DNA of 12,673 nucleotides, from the NCBI GenBank assembly GCA_002402125.1, contig NVVG01000012.1, positions 11,025-23,697 of the forward strand, given 5' to 3'. Of the stretch, positions 3,484 to 12,673 are shown one piece after another. The DNA is from Moraxellaceae bacterium. GTDB taxonomy: Bacteria > Pseudomonadota > Gammaproteobacteria > Pseudomonadales > Ketobacteraceae. Made by a program: the position numbers and the translations under genes. The first letter of the stretch is position 1. Each line of letters starts with the position of its first letter. The notes below the pieces were generated by a model, which had not been told where the DNA came from, did not search any database, and saw only the letters and a program-made list of their open reading frames with translations.

Positions 3484-3507
3484 TGTTATAGCGAAGGAGA
3501 CACTATC

Positions 3508-4743
3508 GTGAAACTGGAATTAGCGCAATCTACTCAGAAATCACCGACTAATGTCGATCACAACTTTACCGTATTACTGGCCGGTCGTAATCGAACGGGT
3601 TTGGATCAGTTGGTTGACATTGTCTCTCGTATAAAAGGTATCAACATCACTACAAACCATATATGTAATGTCCACAGTGATCCGCTCCATGGGGTCGATA
3701 CACTACCGCAATTATTGGTGTTTTGGCTCGGTGAAAATTGGCGCGATGAGCTCAGTGAATTGGTACAGCGAAGCGCAAAACAAAGACCGGCAATAATTGT
3801 TGTAGCCAACACCTCAGAGCAGGAGGCTATGCGGATGGCGATGAAGGCAGGTGCCATAGATTACATCCGCTCTCCATTTGATGCGCTGGAGCTACAGAGC
3901 ACTATTTGCAAACAAATTGAGGAGAAAAATTATCAGGGAATCAATACAGTGTCGCCTATCACTTCTTTCATTAATGCAAAGGGTGGTTCAGGTTGCTCTT
4001 TGATCGCCTGCAATAGTGCACATATGATGGCGGAGGTTACGCATTCCAGAGTGGCTTTAATAGATCTGGATCTTCAGTTTGGCAGCCTCTGCCACTACTT
4101 GGATATGGAGCCCACGTATGGATTGATGGAAGCCTTGGAAAATGTATATGAGTTAGATAAACAGGCTTTAGAAGCTTATATGTTGAAGCATTCCTCAGGC
4201 CTTCACTTACTCGATATTAAGCCTGGGGATTTATTTGTCCCTGAAGATATCAGCACAGAAAATATGGATATACTACTACAGTTGCTGGCAACGAATTACG
4301 ATCATGTAGTGGTGGACCTGCCACGGCATATCAGCATGTTGAGCAGTATGGTACTAGAAAAATCGGAAAAAGTTGTAGTGGTGATGCAGCAAAGTATCTC
4401 TCACTTAAGAGATGCCAAGCGTCTACTGCATATTCTCAAGAATGATATTGGCATAGAAGAAAACAAAATTCGCGTAGTGGTTAATCGCTACAATAAAAAC
4501 GATAACCTGAACATTGATGATATTGGCAAAGCCTTAAGACATTCAGTCAACCTGACGGCGCCGAATTCATATGCACAAGTGTCAGAGAGTATTAACCAGG
4601 GTGTCCCGCTCTATGATATTTCGAAAAAATCGCCGCTTACCCAGTCGATGATGAATGTTGGTTATGACATTTCGGGGGGAGTTTGTATCCCGCAACAGAT
4701 TAGTCTTATTAGTCGTCTGCTAAAACATATCAGAGGAGTATAG
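3508..4743 (+). CDS. tadZ: TadZ/CpaE, ParA/MinD-like pilus localisation ATPase
   Basis: This 411-residue protein has an N-terminal receiver-like domain (about 20-138) followed by a ParA/MinD-superfamily domain. The P-loop region reads NAKGGSGCSLIA at 156-167. The signature Lys158 of deviant Walker A ATPases is kept, but the second Lys of KGGxGKT is replaced by Cys163. That pattern is characteristic of TadZ/CpaE rather than of ParA. The ALIDLDLQFGSL motif (about 183-194) and HVVVDLPRH (Asp270) follow as switch and Walker B elements. TadZ places the Tad machinery, usually at a cell pole. The start is GTG 3508 after GAAGGAGA (3492-3499). It ends three bases before tadA. The call is firm; the polar role is family knowledge. 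Confidence 0.93.
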   Translation: MKLELAQSTQKSPTNVDHNFTVLLAGRNRTGLDQLVDIVSRIKGINITTNHICNVHSDPLHGVDTLPQLLVFWLGENWRDELSELVQRSAKQRPAIIVVANTSEQEAMRMAMKAGAIDYIRSPFDALELQSTICKQIEEKNYQGINTVSPITSFINAKGGSGCSLIACNSAHMMAEVTHSRVALIDLDLQFGSLCHYLDMEPTYGLMEALENVYELDKQALEAYMLKHSSGLHLLDIKPGDLFVPEDISTENMDILLQLLATNYDHVVVDLPRHISMLSSMVLEKSEKVVVVMQQSISHLRDAKRLLHILKNDIGIEENKIRVVVNRYNKNDNLNIDDIGKALRHSVNLTAPNSYAQVSESINQGVPLYDISKKSPLTQSMMNVGYDISGGVCIPQQISLISRLLKHIRGV

Positions 4744-4746
4744 ATT

Positions 4747-6120
4747 ATGGATTATCAAGCTCAAACAAATCTATCAGCCAGTGTTGATCCTGACGAGAGT
4801 GAAGTCACTCGACCAGCTGACTGGAACGTATTGAGTGACAATGAGTCGCGTTATAAGGAACAGATTCATAAAAAACTACTGGATGTCATCGATCTCGCCA
4901 GGATAAACACTTTGAGCGAGGAAGATGCCAGAAGTCAAATGCGACATATTTGTCAACAGCTTTTCGATGAGATTTCACTGCCTATTAATATGCAAGCGCG
5001 GCAGAAAATTGTTCAACACATTGAAGATGAGGTTATGGGGCTGGGGCCACTTGAGTCCTTGCTGGCGGACGCGAGTATTTCGGACATTCTGGTTAACGGC
5101 CCCGATTTAGTTTACGTTGAGCGCGACGGCAAGTTACAAAAGGCTCACTGCCGTTTTGATAGTGAGGCCCATCTGCGCAATGTGATTGACCGGATAGTGT
5201 CTCGAGTGGGAAGGCGCATAGATGAATCGTCACCAATGGTCGATGCACGCTTAAAGGATGGTTCGCGGGTCAATGTGGTAATACCCCCATTAGCGATAGA
5301 TGGCTCAGCGCTGTCCATTCGCCGTTTTGCGATTAAAAAGCTGTCTATTGAGCAGCTGATCGAAACCGATTCACTGTCACATGCGGCGGCTAAATTTATT
5401 CAAGGGGCAGTAAAGGGCAGGATGAATATTTTGGTTTCTGGCGGAACAGGGTCTGGTAAAACCACTTTCCTCAATATTCTTTCCGGTTTTATACCGGAAG
5501 ATGAGCGGGTGATTACCATTGAGGATGCAGCAGAGCTGCAGATGCAACAACCCCATGTGGTGAGATTGGAAACGCGGCCAGCCAATATCGAGGGCAAAAG
5601 TGAAATTACCCAACGTGACCTGGTTAAAAATGCATTGCGTATGCGACCCGAGCGTATTGTTATCGGTGAAGTCAGGGGGGGAGAGGCCTTCGATATGTTG
5701 CAGGCGATGAATACCGGCCACGATGGTTCATTAACCACCATACACGCGAATTCCGCCAGGGATTCTTTAACCCGGGTAGAGAATATGGTGGCTATGGGAG
5801 GCATAGACTTTCCAATTAGCACGATTCGTAAACAAATTGCTTCGGCCATTCATATTGTTATTCAGGTGCAAAGACTCGAAGACGGCAAGCGTAAGGTCGT
5901 CAGCATCCAGGAGATAAACGGCATGGAGGGTGATGTGGTTACCATGTCAGAACTTTTTAAGTTCGAACGTTGCGGTATGGACAATGGTAGGGTTTTGGGG
6001 CGGTTCAAAGCCACAGGTATTATTCCTGCTTGTTTTGATAATTTACAGCAACGGGGCATAGAGATATCGACTGCTATGTTTCACCCCGGTGAGGAGTGGA
6101 GGCCTGAAAATGGACATTGA
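4747..6120 (+). CDS. tadA: TadA/CpaF, Flp pilus motor ATPase
   Basis: This is a type II/IV secretion ATPase of the VirB11/CpaF branch, 457 residues. Motifs are complete: GLGPLESLLADASISDILVNGPD (98-120), Walker A GGTGSGKTT (232-240), the acidic ITIEDAAEL stretch (about 257-264), Walker B RIVIGEVRGGE (303-313, Glu308), and the His box GHDGSLTTIHAN (324-335). It is a cytoplasmic hexameric ATPase that powers pilus extension (and, in some Tad systems, retraction) by acting on the TadB/TadC platform. ATG 4747 follows GAGGAG (4733-4738) at eight bases. The 3' end overlaps tadB by 11 bases. Nothing appears broken. Confidence 0.97.
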   Translation: MDYQAQTNLSASVDPDESEVTRPADWNVLSDNESRYKEQIHKKLLDVIDLARINTLSEEDARSQMRHICQQLFDEISLPINMQARQKIVQHIEDEVMGLGPLESLLADASISDILVNGPDLVYVERDGKLQKAHCRFDSEAHLRNVIDRIVSRVGRRIDESSPMVDARLKDGSRVNVVIPPLAIDGSALSIRRFAIKKLSIEQLIETDSLSHAAAKFIQGAVKGRMNILVSGGTGSGKTTFLNILSGFIPEDERVITIEDAAELQMQQPHVVRLETRPANIEGKSEITQRDLVKNALRMRPERIVIGEVRGGEAFDMLQAMNTGHDGSLTTIHANSARDSLTRVENMVAMGGIDFPISTIRKQIASAIHIVIQVQRLEDGKRKVVSIQEINGMEGDVVTMSELFKFERCGMDNGRVLGRFKATGIIPACFDNLQQRGIEISTAMFHPGEEWRPENGH

Positions 6121-7084
6121 TATCCTGATATTTATAGCGTTGATATTTGCTGCGGCTTTTTTGTTGCTGACTGGGCTGACCATGCCAGTGTTTGGCGAAA
6201 ACCGTCAGGCGAAAAAACGTTTGAAGAAGCGGGTAGCTAATCTCGATGAGTCTAAGCAGCACATAGAGCGTACGGTGGAGTTGCGTAAGGATGAGATAAA
6301 AGGTCTTTTCGACTGGGAGAAGAGGCTGGAAATATTGCCTGCACTGAATTCGCTAAGGCAATTGATTAACCAGTCGGGTCACCATATAAGTGCTTTTAGA
6401 CTGTTGATATTGTCGTTATTACTGGCAGTAGTTAGCGCAGCTACGGTCTGGTATTTTACCCATATGTTGCTAGCTGTGATTATTGCTGGCGTTGCAGTCG
6501 GTGCGCTACCAATGATTAAAATCATGCAAGACCGTAATAAACGATTTGCGCGCTTTGAAGAGCAGTTGCCCGATGCGATTGATGTTATGAAACGTGCTCT
6601 GCAAGCGGGTCACCCCTTTAACGAAAGCCTTAATCTGGTTGCGCTGGAACTGGACGATCCGATTGCCTCGGAATTCGGTAAAACCTTTGCCGAATTAAAT
6701 TATGGTAGCGATATGAAATGGGCTTTGCTGGGGCTGCTTGAACGGGTTCCCAGTGTCAATGTAATGGCCCTGATTACCTCGGTGTCAGTACAGCGAGAAA
6801 CCGGGGGTAATTTGGTGGAAATTCTTAATAAGTTGAGCCGAGTAATCCGCGAACGGTTTAAGTTTAGCCGTAAAGTACGCACCTTATCGGCGGAGGGGCG
6901 CATGTCAGCATGGATTTTGAGCTTGATGCCCTTTGGTTTGTGTGGGCTTATTGGGATTACAACACCGGAATATTTACCGATTCTTTTCAAGAGTGATACC
7001 GGTAAAGATTTATTGATGGGCGCCGCAGTTGGTATGGTGCTAGGTATCTATTGGATTCGAAATATTATCCGTATAGAGGTTTAG
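6110..7084 (+). CDS. tadB: TadB, inner-membrane platform protein (T2SF domain)
   Basis: The protein is a type II secretion F-domain membrane protein. An N-terminal helix (IDILIFIALIFAAAFLLLTGLT) and two central helices (residues about 95-140) precede the cytoplasmic T2SF domain with LPDAIDVMKRALQAGHPFNESL and SVSVQRETGGNLVEILNKLSRVIRER. C-terminal helices (SAWILSLMPFGLCGLIGI and GAAVGMVLGIYWI) follow. It forms, with TadC, the inner-membrane base on which TadA works. I choose ATG 6110 (324 residues) because GGAGG at 6098-6102 sits seven bases upstream; the open frame runs seven codons further back, to 6089, but without an equal site. It overlaps tadA by 11 bases, so coupling is likely. Confidence 0.94.
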   Translation: MDIDILIFIALIFAAAFLLLTGLTMPVFGENRQAKKRLKKRVANLDESKQHIERTVELRKDEIKGLFDWEKRLEILPALNSLRQLINQSGHHISAFRLLILSLLLAVVSAATVWYFTHMLLAVIIAGVAVGALPMIKIMQDRNKRFARFEEQLPDAIDVMKRALQAGHPFNESLNLVALELDDPIASEFGKTFAELNYGSDMKWALLGLLERVPSVNVMALITSVSVQRETGGNLVEILNKLSRVIRERFKFSRKVRTLSAEGRMSAWILSLMPFGLCGLIGITTPEYLPILFKSDTGKDLLMGAAVGMVLGIYWIRNIIRIEV

Positions 7085-7087
7085 GCA

Positions 7088-7348
7088 ATGGAATATTTTA
7101 TCGAGTTGTTATCACGTTATATACAAGATGAACAAATATTACGCTGGTTGTTTGTATTATTGGTCACTATTGCTGTATTCGCTATTGGTATGAGCCTGAC
7201 TTATTTAACGATGCCATTCTATGATCCCTTTCGCCAACGTTTGGCCAAGTTAACTGGCTTTGACCAAAATTCAAATACTGTCCCGTTGAACGAAGGAGAA
7301 AAATCAGCCCCTATTTTTGCAGATAAACTGGATGCAGTAGCAAAATAA
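7088..7348 (+). CDS. tadC: TadC N-terminal fragment, ended by an in-frame TAA
   Basis: This 86-residue reading frame corresponds to the start of TadC: a single transmembrane helix (WLFVLLVTIAVFAIGMSLTYL) followed by a cytoplasmic stretch FYDPFRQRLAKLTGF. ATG 7088 is preceded by AGAGG (7075-7079). The frame stops at TAA 7346-7348, but the same frame continues directly afterwards as VLPRNDSELASMRAKLVRAGFRG, which is what TadC proteins have between the N-terminal helix and the T2SF domain. So this is not a separate gene. A one-base substitution in a sense codon explains it; no indel is needed. Either tadC is a recent pseudogene, the two parts are made separately, the stop is read through, or there is a sequencing error. 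Confidence 0.8.
   Translation: MEYFIELLSRYIQDEQILRWLFVLLVTIAVFAIGMSLTYLTMPFYDPFRQRLAKLTGFDQNSNTVPLNEGEKSAPIFADKLDAVAK
7346..7348 (+). other. in-frame TAA interrupting tadC
   Basis: The codon lies between GCA-AAA (Ala-Lys) and GTA-CTC (Val-Leu), and frames on both sides are identical (both begin at positions leaving remainder 2 when divided by 3). The surrounding sequence contains no insertion or deletion signature. Single-base change from TAT, TAC, CAA, AAA, GAA, TCA or TTA would produce it. Confidence 0.9.
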
Positions 7349-7381
7349 GTACTCCCCCGGAATGACAGTGAGCTGGCTTCG

Positions 7382-8065
7382 ATGCGGGCCAAGTTAGTGC
7401 GAGCTGGCTTTCGAGGTGAGCGTGACTTGACATCTTTTTATGCAATAAAAACTATTGCCTGTGTTGTGTTTGGGTGTGTAGCCCTTCAAGCGACTACTTT
7501 CTTTCCTGAATTGAGCGCTAATCACGCTATGTTGATTGTTCTTGGTGCAATTTGTACCGGCTTAATACTACCCAATATGATTGTTAACAAATTGGAGACA
7601 AATAGAATTCGGAGAATACGTAATGGCTTTCCGGACGCGTTGGACTTGTTTGTTGTTTGTGTCGAAGCAGGTCTTGGTCTCGCCGCTACTATTCAACGAG
7701 TTGCCGATGAAATGGATGTAAGCCACCCCGATCTTGCCGAGGAATTAGGTCTGGTTACTGCCGAAATGAGTTTGGGTGTTGATCGTATCACCGCGCTTCG
7801 CGGGCTTGCTCGGCGTACCGGCCTCGATGAAATTAAAGGCTTGGTGGCGCTACTGGACCAAAGTGCTCGCTTCGGTACCGGCATAGCCGAAACCTTGCGA
7901 GTCTACTCAGATGAATTCCGTGATAAACGGATGCAGATGGCGGAAGAAAATGCCGCCAAAGTGGCTACTAAAATGATTTTTCCGCTGACATTTTGTATGT
8001 GGCCTGCATTTTTTGTGGTGGCAGTTGGGCCCGCAATACTAAAAGTTTTTGAAGTGTTTAAATAA
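7382..8065 (+). CDS. tadC: TadC C-terminal part, T2SF-domain platform protein
   Basis: This is the bulk of TadC (227 residues from ATG 7382; open in the same frame from 7349). It starts with MRAKLVRAGFRGERDLTSFYAIK, then two membrane helices (about 22-68), the T2SF domain (NGFPDALDLFVVCVEAGLGLAATIQRVADEM, then MSLGVDRITALRGLARRTGLDEIKGLVALLDQSARFGTGIAETLRVYSDEFRDKR) and a final helix ending in GPAILKVFEVFK. These are core TadC motifs and look intact. No good Shine-Dalgarno sequence precedes ATG 7382, so independent initiation would be weak unless translation restarts after the upstream TAA, 33 bases away. If expressed, the part lacks the first TadC helix. Bases 7766-7845 are the source of the inverted copy found in tadD. 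Confidence 0.88.
   Translation: MRAKLVRAGFRGERDLTSFYAIKTIACVVFGCVALQATTFFPELSANHAMLIVLGAICTGLILPNMIVNKLETNRIRRIRNGFPDALDLFVVCVEAGLGLAATIQRVADEMDVSHPDLAEELGLVTAEMSLGVDRITALRGLARRTGLDEIKGLVALLDQSARFGTGIAETLRVYSDEFRDKRMQMAEENAAKVATKMIFPLTFCMWPAFFVVAVGPAILKVFEVFK
7766..7845 (+). repeat. arm 1 of an 80-bp inverted repeat (tadC core)
   Basis: The reverse complement of this stretch matches 8650-8729 inside tadD at 75 of 80 positions without gaps. Here it encodes the conserved TadC segment MSLGVDRITALRGLARRTGLD and the EIKGLV that follows, so tadC is the likely source copy. Confidence 0.95.
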
Positions 8066-8094
8066 TTGTATCCGGAGACGGAGAGGATTACACA

Positions 8095-9336
8095 ATGAAT
8101 ACTACATACTCCAAAATTGTAACTATTACTCTGACCATCGCGTTGGCTGCGGGCTGCGCTACCAACAAAGTTGAGCCCAGCCCTGAGCAGGCCTGGATAC
8201 AGCAGCACGCGCTCTTTGACGGTAATGACAGCAGCTTGTTTGTTAACAGTGAGTTCAAGTCAAACACTAAAAATTGGAAAACAGAGAAGCAAGGAAAAGA
8301 GGCTCCGACTAAACAAGAATTTATCATGCGCGGCGATAGGGCCTGGCGCAGTGGTGATACCGAACGTGCATTATTTGAATATCTCCGTGCCCTGAAACTT
8401 GATGAGCAGGACAAAACCATTTATTTAAAAATCGGCATCGTCCATGAAAACAGAGAAAATGATAATCTGTCAGAACTGGCCTATATAGAGGCCCTGAATA
8501 TTGACCCAGACTATATTCCCGCACTTGCACGCAGCGGAAAAGTGTCTCTTAAGCAACGAAAATACCTGGAGGCACGTCACCTTTTTGAAAGAGCTATTAA
8601 ATTGGATAGATCGCGACTACTCGAAGATTCCACCATCCTGATAACAAGTACCAAGCCTTTAATTTCATCGAGGCAGGTACGCCGCGCAAGCCCGCGAAGC
8701 GCGGTGATTCGATCAACGTCCAAACTCATCGTAGATTCCACCAAACTGATGATAAGTCAGCAAACTGTTGCTGCCGATGTTGTTGCTGAATCGGAGCAGG
8801 ACGAAACACAAACCCTTGTGGTAGTTGAGCCTCCCCACATTGATAGCCGCTCCCCATTCTATGCTTATAATGGCGTGGGTGTGATCAATGATATTGAAGG
8901 CGAACATGCCTTGGCGATGAAAAATTTTGAACTCGCCAGGGAAATTGCACCTCGTTCTGCCCTGATTCATAACAATATGGGGTATTCCAATTATTTAGTC
9001 GACCAACTTGATGTAGCTGAGCAGTTGTTTAAAAAATCGATTGCCCTGGATAAAGATTATGGCGCAGCCTGGAGAAATCTGGCACTGCTTTATGTGCGCC
9101 AGGATAGCTATGAAAAAGCGGTCCATCTACTGGTATCGAAGTTTGACGATAAGCCATCGGCATATAATACCGTTGGATACCTGTGTATGCTGAATAAAAA
9201 ATACAATAGTGCCGAGCAATACTTTCAGAAGGCAATTAAATCCTCACCGGTTTATTACAAAATTGCTAATGAAAACCTGATAAGAAATCGTAAGCTTTAT
9301 TCCGCCACAGTTTATGAAAAATTAACGTATAACTGA
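8095..9336 (+). CDS. tadD: TadD, TPR lipoprotein, with an internal 36-codon insertion
   Basis: The 413-residue protein begins with a lipoprotein signal (helix ITLTIALAAGC, lipobox LAAGC). It then has TPR-like repeats at about 80-170 (RGDRAWRSGDTERALFEYLRALKLD and following) and again at about 260-400 (AYNGVGVINDIEGEHALAMKNFELAREIAP, NNMGYSNYLVDQLDVAEQLFKKSIALD, and so on). TadD lipoproteins help the secretin reach or assemble in the outer membrane. ATG 8095 follows GAGAGGA (8081-8087). Between the TPR blocks, residues about 176-221 are foreign: LEDSTILITS and IVDSTKLMIS bracket TKPLISSRQVRRASPRSAVI and the RSTSKL after it, a Ser/Arg-rich stretch that is the antisense translation of tadC core. 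The frame is kept because the repeat period is exactly 108 bp. Whether the longer linker is tolerated is unknown; the position in an inter-repeat linker makes it plausible. Confidence 0.9.
   Translation: MNTTYSKIVTITLTIALAAGCATNKVEPSPEQAWIQQHALFDGNDSSLFVNSEFKSNTKNWKTEKQGKEAPTKQEFIMRGDRAWRSGDTERALFEYLRALKLDEQDKTIYLKIGIVHENRENDNLSELAYIEALNIDPDYIPALARSGKVSLKQRKYLEARHLFERAIKLDRSRLLEDSTILITSTKPLISSRQVRRASPRSAVIRSTSKLIVDSTKLMISQQTVAADVVAESEQDETQTLVVVEPPHIDSRSPFYAYNGVGVINDIEGEHALAMKNFELAREIAPRSALIHNNMGYSNYLVDQLDVAEQLFKKSIALDKDYGAAWRNLALLYVRQDSYEKAVHLLVSKFDDKPSAYNTVGYLCMLNKKYNSAEQYFQKAIKSSPVYYKIANENLIRNRKLYSATVYEKLTYN
8621..8649 (+). repeat. direct repeat copy 1 flanking the insertion in tadD
   Basis: This 29-bp stretch matches 8729-8757 at 24 of 29 positions, including the exact 11-mer AGATTCCACCA. 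It ends at the base immediately before the inverted tadC copy starts (8650). Confidence 0.85.
8650..8729 (-). repeat. arm 2: inverted 80-bp copy of tadC core inside tadD
   Basis: It is the reverse complement of tadC 7766-7845 with five substitutions and no gaps; identity breaks off at both ends. Read in the tadD frame it encodes TKPLISSRQVRRASPRSAVI and continues through RSTSKL. One substitution makes CCGCGC (8682-8687) pair perfectly with GCGCGG (8699-8704), which in RNA extends to 8 bp with a G-U pair. Confidence 0.93.
8729..8757 (+). repeat. direct repeat copy 2 flanking the insertion in tadD
   Basis: This is the second copy of the 29-bp imperfect direct repeat, offset 108 bp from copy 1. 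It begins where the inverted tadC fragment ends, sharing one base. Confidence 0.85.
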
Positions 9337-9347
9337 TTAATACGTTA
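9323..9347 (+). other. AT-rich hairpin over the tadD stop codon
   Basis: TAACGTAT (9323-9330) pairs perfectly with ATACGTTA (9340-9347) around a 9-base loop that contains the TGA stop. There is no T-tract and the stem is AT-rich, so it is a weak candidate for a 3'-end structure. Confidence 0.45.
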
Positions 9348-9357
9348 TACATTGTAA

Positions 9358-9389
9358 GCCAGGACATGAAAACTCATTGCTGTTCTGGC
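9358..9389 (+). terminator. candidate hairpin terminator after the tad operon
   Basis: GCCAGGAC (9358-9365) pairs with GTTCTGGC (9382-9389) with one G-U pair; A9366-T9381 adds one more pair, leaving a 14-base loop. It lies 21 bases after the tadD stop. No T-tract follows, so intrinsic termination is uncertain. Confidence 0.4.
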
Positions 9390-9722
9390 ATGTGCTTGCT
9401 ACCGGTGTCCATGGACTTTGAAGTAGTGGTCTCTCCTCTAATGACCGGGAGGTAGTTAAAATTGGTCGTACTGGTCGGGTAAGGCTCTCCACCCTCAAGG
9501 CGGGTAGTCGTGGATAAAATAAAGGCTATTAATGACAGCTGTAGATCCTGCCGTCTAAAGGTTTACGACGGAACCACAATTCTAGTTTGAACGAAAATTC
9601 GAGAGTGTCAGGTTGAATCTGAACTTATACAAATAAACTGCGAACATCTTTAGTATCTATGCAGGCATAGCGAAGTATTACTATTGCTAGTGTCAGAAAA
9701 CTGTTGGAGTATAGATGCATAT

Positions 9723-11193: not shown

Positions 11194-11215
11194 GTTTTTT
11201 CCTTAAACTTGTCGT

Positions 11216-12673
11216 TTAGAACCAATCCGCTTGCATGTCATAGCTTGTGCTATCGAAATCTGTCAGCAGCTTAGCCCAAGCATCTATTTCTGTGAGCTCT
11301 GACTTGTAGAAGTAGCGTAGCGCTTGCAGTTTACCTTTATAGAACTTCTGGTCTTGCTCGTGTGGTTGCTTCTCTAGTGCTGATTGAGCAACGATACCTT
11401 GCTTCAACCAAATCCAAGCCATGACCACATTGCCAAATAGGTCGAGGTATTTAACCGAGTTGGAAAGAACCAAATCGATATTCTTGGTCTGCATGCTCAC
11501 CAGTAAGGTTTCGGTGACAGAAGATAATGTCTTCATCGATTTTGCTAGTTCATCGGCGAATTCAATGAGGTTGTCATGATTTCTTGCCAGGTCAATGGTT
11601 TTGTTGAATTCGCCCATTAATGCTTTAACGCCAGCGAGCTGGTTCATCGGTACTTTACGAGCCAATAAATCCAATGATTGGATGCAGTAAGTTCCCTCAT
11701 GAATCGGGTTAAGCCGGTTGTCGCGATAGAACATTTCTACTGGGTGCTCATTAATATAACCGTGCCCCCCAAGCACCTGGATTGCCAGATCATTTGCCCG
11801 CGGGCCATATTCTGAGGGCCAGGACTTGATGATAGGTGTGAGCAAGTCTAAAAGGGTGTGAGCGTGTTTACGTTCTTCTTCGGTAGGAGCTGTCTTCTCA
11901 TCATCGGCTAACTGTGCACCGAGTAAACACAGTGCAAAAGCGCCTTCGGCATAGGCTTTTTGGGCAAGCAACATCCGGCGTACATCGGCATGCTCAATAA
12001 TATTGACCGGGGGTGTTGCAGGGTCTTTGCAAGAGGGGAGGCGTCCCTGAGGGCGTTCTTTGGCATAATCCAAGGAATACTGGAATCCGGTTAGTGCTGT
12101 GACGGCCGCACCTGTGCCCACTAAGATTCGGGCTTCGTTCATCATGTGAAACATGCAATACAGGCCTTTGTGCTCCTCACCGACGAGGTACCCGACGGCG
12201 CCGCCATTTTCTCCAAAGTTAAGCGCACACGATGTTTGGCCTCGGCCGCCCATTTTGTGGAACAAACCGGCAAGTGCAACGTCATTGCGCTCACCCAGTG
12301 AACCATCTTCATTGACCAAAATTTTGGGCACGATAAAAAGTGAAATACCCTTGGTACCTTTTGGTGCGCCCTTGATTCGAGCCAGAACCAAATGCACGAT
12401 ATTTGCATTAAGCTCGTGGTCTCCGCCGGAGATAAATACTTTGTTACCAGTAACCAGGTAGGTACCATCATCAGCTTTGACAGCGGAGGTGGTTAGATCA
12501 GCTAGCCCTGACCCGGCGTCGGCTTCGGTCATTGCCATGGTGCCGGCAAAGCGACCGTCGCGCATGGGAACAACCCATTGCTCGATCTGTTCTGCGGTTC
12601 CGTATGCCTGAATTAAGTTAGCGTTGGCATTGGTCAGCCAGGTGTATCCAAGTGTGATACTGCCGGCGGCACT
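11216..12673 (-). CDS. acyl-CoA dehydrogenase, ~600-aa family (5' truncated)
   Basis: The frame is open to the window edge (485 residues visible), so ATG 12565 is internal: the upstream codons read SAAGSITLGYTWLTNANANL and on into the ATG region. Features include TEADAGSGLADL (FAD/substrate region), KMGGRGQTSCALNFGE, and QVLGGHGYINEHPVEMFYRDNRLNPIHEGT, in which the Glu of IHEGT (residue 326 of the visible part) is the usual catalytic base. A further ~155 residues follow it, as in the long acyl-CoA dehydrogenases with an extra C-terminal domain (DmdC-like type). It is an FAD enzyme that introduces the 2,3-double bond into an acyl-CoA. It is the first visible gene of the minus-strand operon. 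The substrate is unknown; DmdC itself is not claimed. Confidence 0.92.
   Translation of the reverse strand, partial: SAAGSITLGYTWLTNANANLIQAYGTAEQIEQWVVPMRDGRFAGTMAMTEADAGSGLADLTTSAVKADDGTYLVTGNKVFISGGDHELNANIVHLVLARIKGAPKGTKGISLFIVPKILVNEDGSLGERNDVALAGLFHKMGGRGQTSCALNFGENGGAVGYLVGEEHKGLYCMFHMMNEARILVGTGAAVTALTGFQYSLDYAKERPQGRLPSCKDPATPPVNIIEHADVRRMLLAQKAYAEGAFALCLLGAQLADDEKTAPTEEERKHAHTLLDLLTPIIKSWPSEYGPRANDLAIQVLGGHGYINEHPVEMFYRDNRLNPIHEGTYCIQSLDLLARKVPMNQLAGVKALMGEFNKTIDLARNHDNLIEFADELAKSMKTLSSVTETLLVSMQTKNIDLVLSNSVKYLDLFGNVVMAWIWLKQGIVAQSALEKQPHEQDQKFYKGKLQALRYFYKSELTEIDAWAKLLTDFDSTSYDMQADWF

Follow-up and report, generated by a model that had tools for sequence, protein, structure and literature searches.

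An in-frame inverted copy of a tadC segment within the neighbouring tadD gene, probably the product of a single template switch during replication or fork repair

How does a bacterial gene come to encode, in frame and in antisense, a piece of the gene next to it? The question is posed by a stretch of 12,673 nucleotides (the window, meaning the whole stretch analyzed), which carries a tad pilus cluster according to its open reading frames and domains; the individual tad letters were assigned from domains, gene order and the names of relatives (Table 1). The original prediction, that an 80-bp piece of tadC lies inverted within tadD, ungapped and with sharp ends, was confirmed by a repeat search and by direct comparison. 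The repeat search returned two inverted arms of 80 nt each, 94% complementary and separated by 804 nt, and the tadD arm was identical to the reverse complement of the tadC arm at 75 of 80 positions without a single gap, with identity collapsing beyond both ends; from the outer end of one arm to that of the other, the pair spans 964 bp (7766–8729). Within the host assembly of 4.62 Mb, a 91-base tadC query found just two places, its own locus and the tadD copy (E = 4e-29 for the latter), which excludes chance. Domains, codon table and structural model agree that the tadC piece is read antisense as a Ser/Arg-rich stretch between the TPR blocks of TadD, and the codon table moves it from the residues originally given, about 176–211, to TadD residues 186–212.

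The copy is real, but its first description was incomplete, as it had overlooked a direct duplication of tadD sequence that brackets the copy. This imperfect repeat (family D4) comprises 34 nt at 79% identity, and the strict target duplication within it is identical at 23 of 28 positions, a value reached by none of 19,575 28-mer pairs drawn at random from 3501–9336 with 13 shifts allowed (best score, 20). Because the target duplication flanks the 80-nt copy, the whole insertion amounts to 108 bp (80 + 28), corresponding to 36 codons, in frame, at TadD residues 186–221. That the insert is open is unsurprising, since 35% of the frame choices for 80-nt tadC windows read in antisense are free of stops, and a total gain that stays a multiple of three would be expected about one time in three.

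Table 1. Coordinates (window positions) of the tad genes and of the segments involved in the tadD insertion.
Feature	Position	Strand	Basis
AAA/ParA-type ATPase, TadZ-like	3508–4743		ORFs, domains
T2SSE ATPase, TadA-like	4747–6120		ORFs, domains
T2SSF protein, TadB-like	6089–7084		ORFs, domains
tadC, upstream open part, 86 aa, ends at in-frame TAA	7088–7348	+	ORFs, alignment
tadC, downstream open part, 227 aa, T2SSF domain, contains the source	7382–8065	+	ORFs, domains
Source segment in tadC, 80 nt, codons for MSLGVDRITALRGLARRTGLDEIKGL...	7766–7845	+	Repeat search, direct comparison, TadC alignment
tadD, 413 aa, TPR protein, recipient	8095–9336	+	ORFs, domains, protein search
Target duplication, left copy (imperfect 34-nt version 8616–8649)	8622–8649	+	Family D4, random-pair test
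Inverted copy of the tadC segment within tadD, TadD residues 186–212	8650–8729	-	Repeat search, genome search, direct comparison
Target duplication, right copy (imperfect 34-nt version 8724–8757)	8730–8757	+	Family D4, random-pair test

We then asked whether the segment is shared with other TadD proteins. A protein search, in which the 7,996 candidates sharing most words were scored, provided a set of 35 homologues, the last seven of which are weak or longer TPR proteins, and the inserted segment was detected in none of the 35. Compared with these proteins, the 26-residue insert peptide yielded only short, chance-like matches, two of them gapped and the rest 4 to 8 residues long, with a best E of 0.037 within this small set of 35 proteins, so that common descent of the antisense segment from distant TadD proteins, which would have spoken against a local insertion, finds no support among them. 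Among 390 genomes of the order searched with TadD, 18 others matched at E 1e-12 or better, of which only G152 (46% identity) matched nearly end to end in one piece; a contig scan with the TadD query returned one weak locus at 24% identity. As no close relative with an uninterrupted allele was found, the state before the insertion is inferred from homologues at no more than 58% identity, which are without the insert and among which the linker varies in length.

It is this linker that received the insertion. TadD consists of two TPR blocks joined by 78 residues, compared with 9 to 75 in 13 aligned homologues, and subtracting the 36 added residues leaves 42, close to the 46 found in the two closest homologues. 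An AlphaFold2 model of TadD (14 sequences, mean pLDDT 79.7) places neither helix nor strand at residues 185–254 and has pLDDT below 50 at 193–243, and residues 185–254 are accordingly predicted to be disordered. With the frame kept and a disordered linker lengthened, TadD could tolerate the insertion, which was probably neutral.

The direction and relative age of the event can be read from a comparison with the 119 non-self TadC matches listed out of 5,187. When translated in the TadC frame, the copy holds the Ser found in its own TadC at residue 130 (numbering of the 227-aa part), a position that is Arg in 117 of the 119 listed relatives and Ser in none. It also carries the Arg of its own TadC at residue 144, shared by three of the 119, and has replacements of its own at Gly132 (Gly in 119/119) and Gly147 (Gly in 117/119). 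Together with the replaced glycines, the private Ser identifies tadC as the donor and tadD as the recipient, bearing out the proposed source, and makes the event lineage-specific; judged from the sequences compared, the insertion postdates the gain of this Ser by the present tadC. The nearest TadC relative among the matches listed is 80% identical, and closer ones may exist, as the listed cluster with the window's own TadC part (P0037) stands for three member sequences. Nor is the insertion fresh, with five mismatches in 80 positions between the inverted copies and five in 28 between the target copies.

The donor gene has a peculiarity of its own. An in-frame TAA (7346–7348) divides tadC, with the next ATG, at 7382, in the same frame, and all 22 aligned TadC relatives (318–331 aa) are uninterrupted at this position. 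None of the 38 adh_short matches in the host genome contains a stop, and the assembly is therefore not generally corrupt, nor the tadC stop a general assembly fault; the TAA is due either to a nonsense mutation of recent date or to an error confined to this site. The cluster may therefore have lost its function, and decay of this kind would ease a neutral insertion. The cluster (C92, window 3508–9336), which the closest genomes do not carry, seems foreign to the family, as TadC at more than 30% identity was found in 0 of 14 other family genomes, and a second TadC-like protein, 27% identical, is encoded in the same genome on contig C115.

Taken together, these features are very probably the product of a single templated insertion, that is, a template switch during DNA replication or fork repair. 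Three ordered fragments account for the sequence: tadD up to 8649, the inverted segment 7845–7766, and tadD again from a repeat of 8622–8649 onward. Under this mechanism, the nascent 3' end would leave tadD at about 8649, and the polymerase would copy 80 nt of tadC in reverse orientation, from 7845 to 7766, on a strand within reach of the same fork, before returning to tadD some 28 nt behind the point of departure, at about 8622, such that these 28 nt were copied twice. The resulting product of +108 bp would have kept the frame and extended the disordered linker by 36 residues (186–221), followed by drift. Synthesis from the opposite side would yield the same product, and the choice of template strand, like the assignment of copy and duplication to one replication-coupled event, is what we consider the most plausible reading; it is conceivable that duplication and insertion were two separate events, in that order. 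The 964-bp tadC–tadD span falls inside the 1.5-kb fork dimension given for E. coli in the available text of PMC3161906. Strict microhomology at the two junctions, assessed by eye, is 0 and 1 nt, although divergence may have erased some; microhomology thus lends no positive support to the template switch, and the few junctional bases that characterize microhomology-mediated template switching (MMBIR) are not seen here.

Several other origins were weighed against this template switch. A staggered double-strand break in tadD might have captured 80 bp of tadC, its overhangs of ~28 nt being filled in to give the flanking duplication before end joining. This route would leave the same final structure and require almost no microhomology, yet we regard it as improbable: both a long stagger and a fragment originating within 1 kb would be necessary, and, for the Ku-dependent form of end joining, Ku (PF02735) was unmatched in the host assembly, which is 87.1% complete (a control search with PF02735 gave a match in one of 14 genomes, that of Bacillus subtilis). 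Displacement amplification makes nearby inverted joins, and the locus could in principle be a chimera of assembly, strain mixture or whole-genome amplification. The fragmentation of the assembly (302 contigs, at the completeness given above), the single N positions dispersed over the assembly (327 among 289,224 sampled bases, with none in the window) and the in-frame stop in tadC would fit such an artifact. However, a chimera should be near-identical to its source and would require two joins that jointly keep the frame, whereas both repeat pairs have diverged; the divergence of the flanking repeats extends the earlier argument from the five substitutions in the inverted copy, and we consider a chimera quite improbable.

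Reading the 80-bp inverted repeat as a selected feature, either an invertible switch or an mRNA structure controlling tadC and tadD, draws on the strong pairing of the arms in silico (-148.6 kcal/mol), where the fold predicted for 7700–8800 pairs 76 of the 80 tadC-arm positions with the copy, and on the finding that inversion would cut the product of the downstream tadC part from 227 to 178 aa. Any inverted copy would pair in this manner, however, and three of the five changes disrupt RNA pairing, the remaining two resulting in G-U. The repeat was not found in the 35 homologues, and no separated inverted repeat was detected in 55 loci around TadD-like matches in other genomes (184,797 bases, four palindromic matches set apart), a weak control, since some of the stretches overlap and may lack a tadC–tadD pair. 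A switch whose inversion would truncate tadC and of which nothing is conserved was rejected, as was a structured RNA, with no Rfam match at gathering score in 7000–9600, and selection for the repeat appears very unlikely. We give least credence of all, practically none, to a mobile or reverse-transcribed element, whether cDNA from the tadC transcript or a small mobile repeat that entered tadD. The target duplication flanking the insert and one reverse-transcriptase match in the genome, on another contig, would be compatible with such an element. Against it, the genome holds one source and one copy, region 8610–8765 was unmatched in phages and plasmids, a 23-base piece had no exact match in viral contigs, and the insert, cut out of conserved coding sequence, showed no terminal inverted repeats; on the same evidence, a MITE or palindromic element was dismissed. 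Diversity-generating retroelements produce changes at template adenines only, whereas the changes here fall on two bases, three A and two C in the tadD sense, and a product of such an element was likewise rejected.

The original prediction had implied an unexplained kind of object, a view that finds no support, as the flanking duplication and the sub-kilobase distance match a described template-switch pattern and the recipient site is a disordered linker of variable length. In-frame palindromic elements of Rickettsia are small protein insertions in arbitrary frame that belong to repeated palindromic families; the tadD insertion shares with them its small size and kept frame within a bacterial protein, but it is a one-copy slice of a neighbouring gene. 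Quasipalindrome-associated template-switch mutation has reportedly been observed in E. coli, and there too a polymerase switch alters coding sequence. The same holds for template switching in yeast genes, as described in the available part of PMC8604942. Unlike the tadD case, in which a different gene gained a long arm de novo and the source lies farther away than in quasipalindrome models, the switches of both these systems correct the arms or invert the spacers of existing short inverted repeats (for yeast, in the same part of PMC8604942).

Another parallel is offered by the four-point template switches of great apes, for which the available text of PMC7954356 gives 1,503 gold-standard events, their inverted fragments having a median length of 12 nt and a maximum of 128 nt; in many of these events the return point precedes the point of departure, and the outcome shows up as a single large insertion. 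The tadD locus resembles the class termed 'point 4 before point 1' in that text, in which an inverted templated copy plus re-copied target form one larger insertion. It differs in being bacterial and in frame, with 80 nt from a neighbouring gene instead of the local source and 12-nt median recorded there (PMC7954356). Small inverted triplications (DUP/IN/DUP) from yeast and cancer have medians of 148/160/148 bp and spacers of 30 bp and likewise set an inverted fragment between direct copies, an arrangement ascribed to replication errors in the available portion of PMC13334657. The inverted piece there derives from the duplicated region, whereas here it comes from tadC, 0.8 kb away and outside the duplicated 28 nt of tadD, and the locus is therefore not a small inverted triplication (PMC13334657, same portion). 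In bacteria, complex junctions in starving E. coli were attributed to inverted template switching, as proposed by the authors in the accessible text of PMC3161906; those inverted duplications measure 5.2–42.6 kb with 3–30 bp of microhomology, unlike the 80-nt coding insert in tadD. No report of an inter-gene, inverted, in-frame insertion in bacteria was recognized in the open-licence literature searched.

Within the host genome, the tadC/tadD pair was the sole separated inverted repeat at E 1e-6 in 22 stretches covering 287,673 of 4,620,605 bases (excluding stretch L063, of 1,551 bases, and with five palindromic matches set apart), and an organism-wide tendency to form such pairs was dismissed on this count. 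The sample yielded further observations unrelated to tad. A reverse transcriptase, presumably group II intron-like by its motifs, is encoded on stretch L083 (G000:C236, 11807–13201), where a self-complementary stretch (78.6%) lies at 11207–11287. Another self-complementary stretch, of 61 nt and 92%, at L062 9428–9488 (G000:C92:29428–29488), is perhaps a hairpin or terminator. The scattered single N are clustered in places, in L061/L062 and other sampled stretches, and may mark strain variation or masked positions.

The tadD insertion is thus best explained as a known kind of mutation, unusually clear in a bacterial gene pair, and calls for no new genetic element; by itself it demonstrates neither a new system nor a function. 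A wider proposal, that bacteria recurrently extend disordered linkers with wholly new, antisense-encoded residues through template switches from one gene to its neighbour, of which this locus would be an example whose long inverted repeat can invert, or pair within the tadC–tadD mRNA, strikes us as improbable. What the locus offers is a legible fossil, in which source, copy, target duplication, copying direction and frame can be read in one bacterial locus. It also provides a search signature, an inverted copy with a flanking direct duplication and a source within about 1 kb, inside genes, which serves to ask how often template slips add coding sequence in bacteria.
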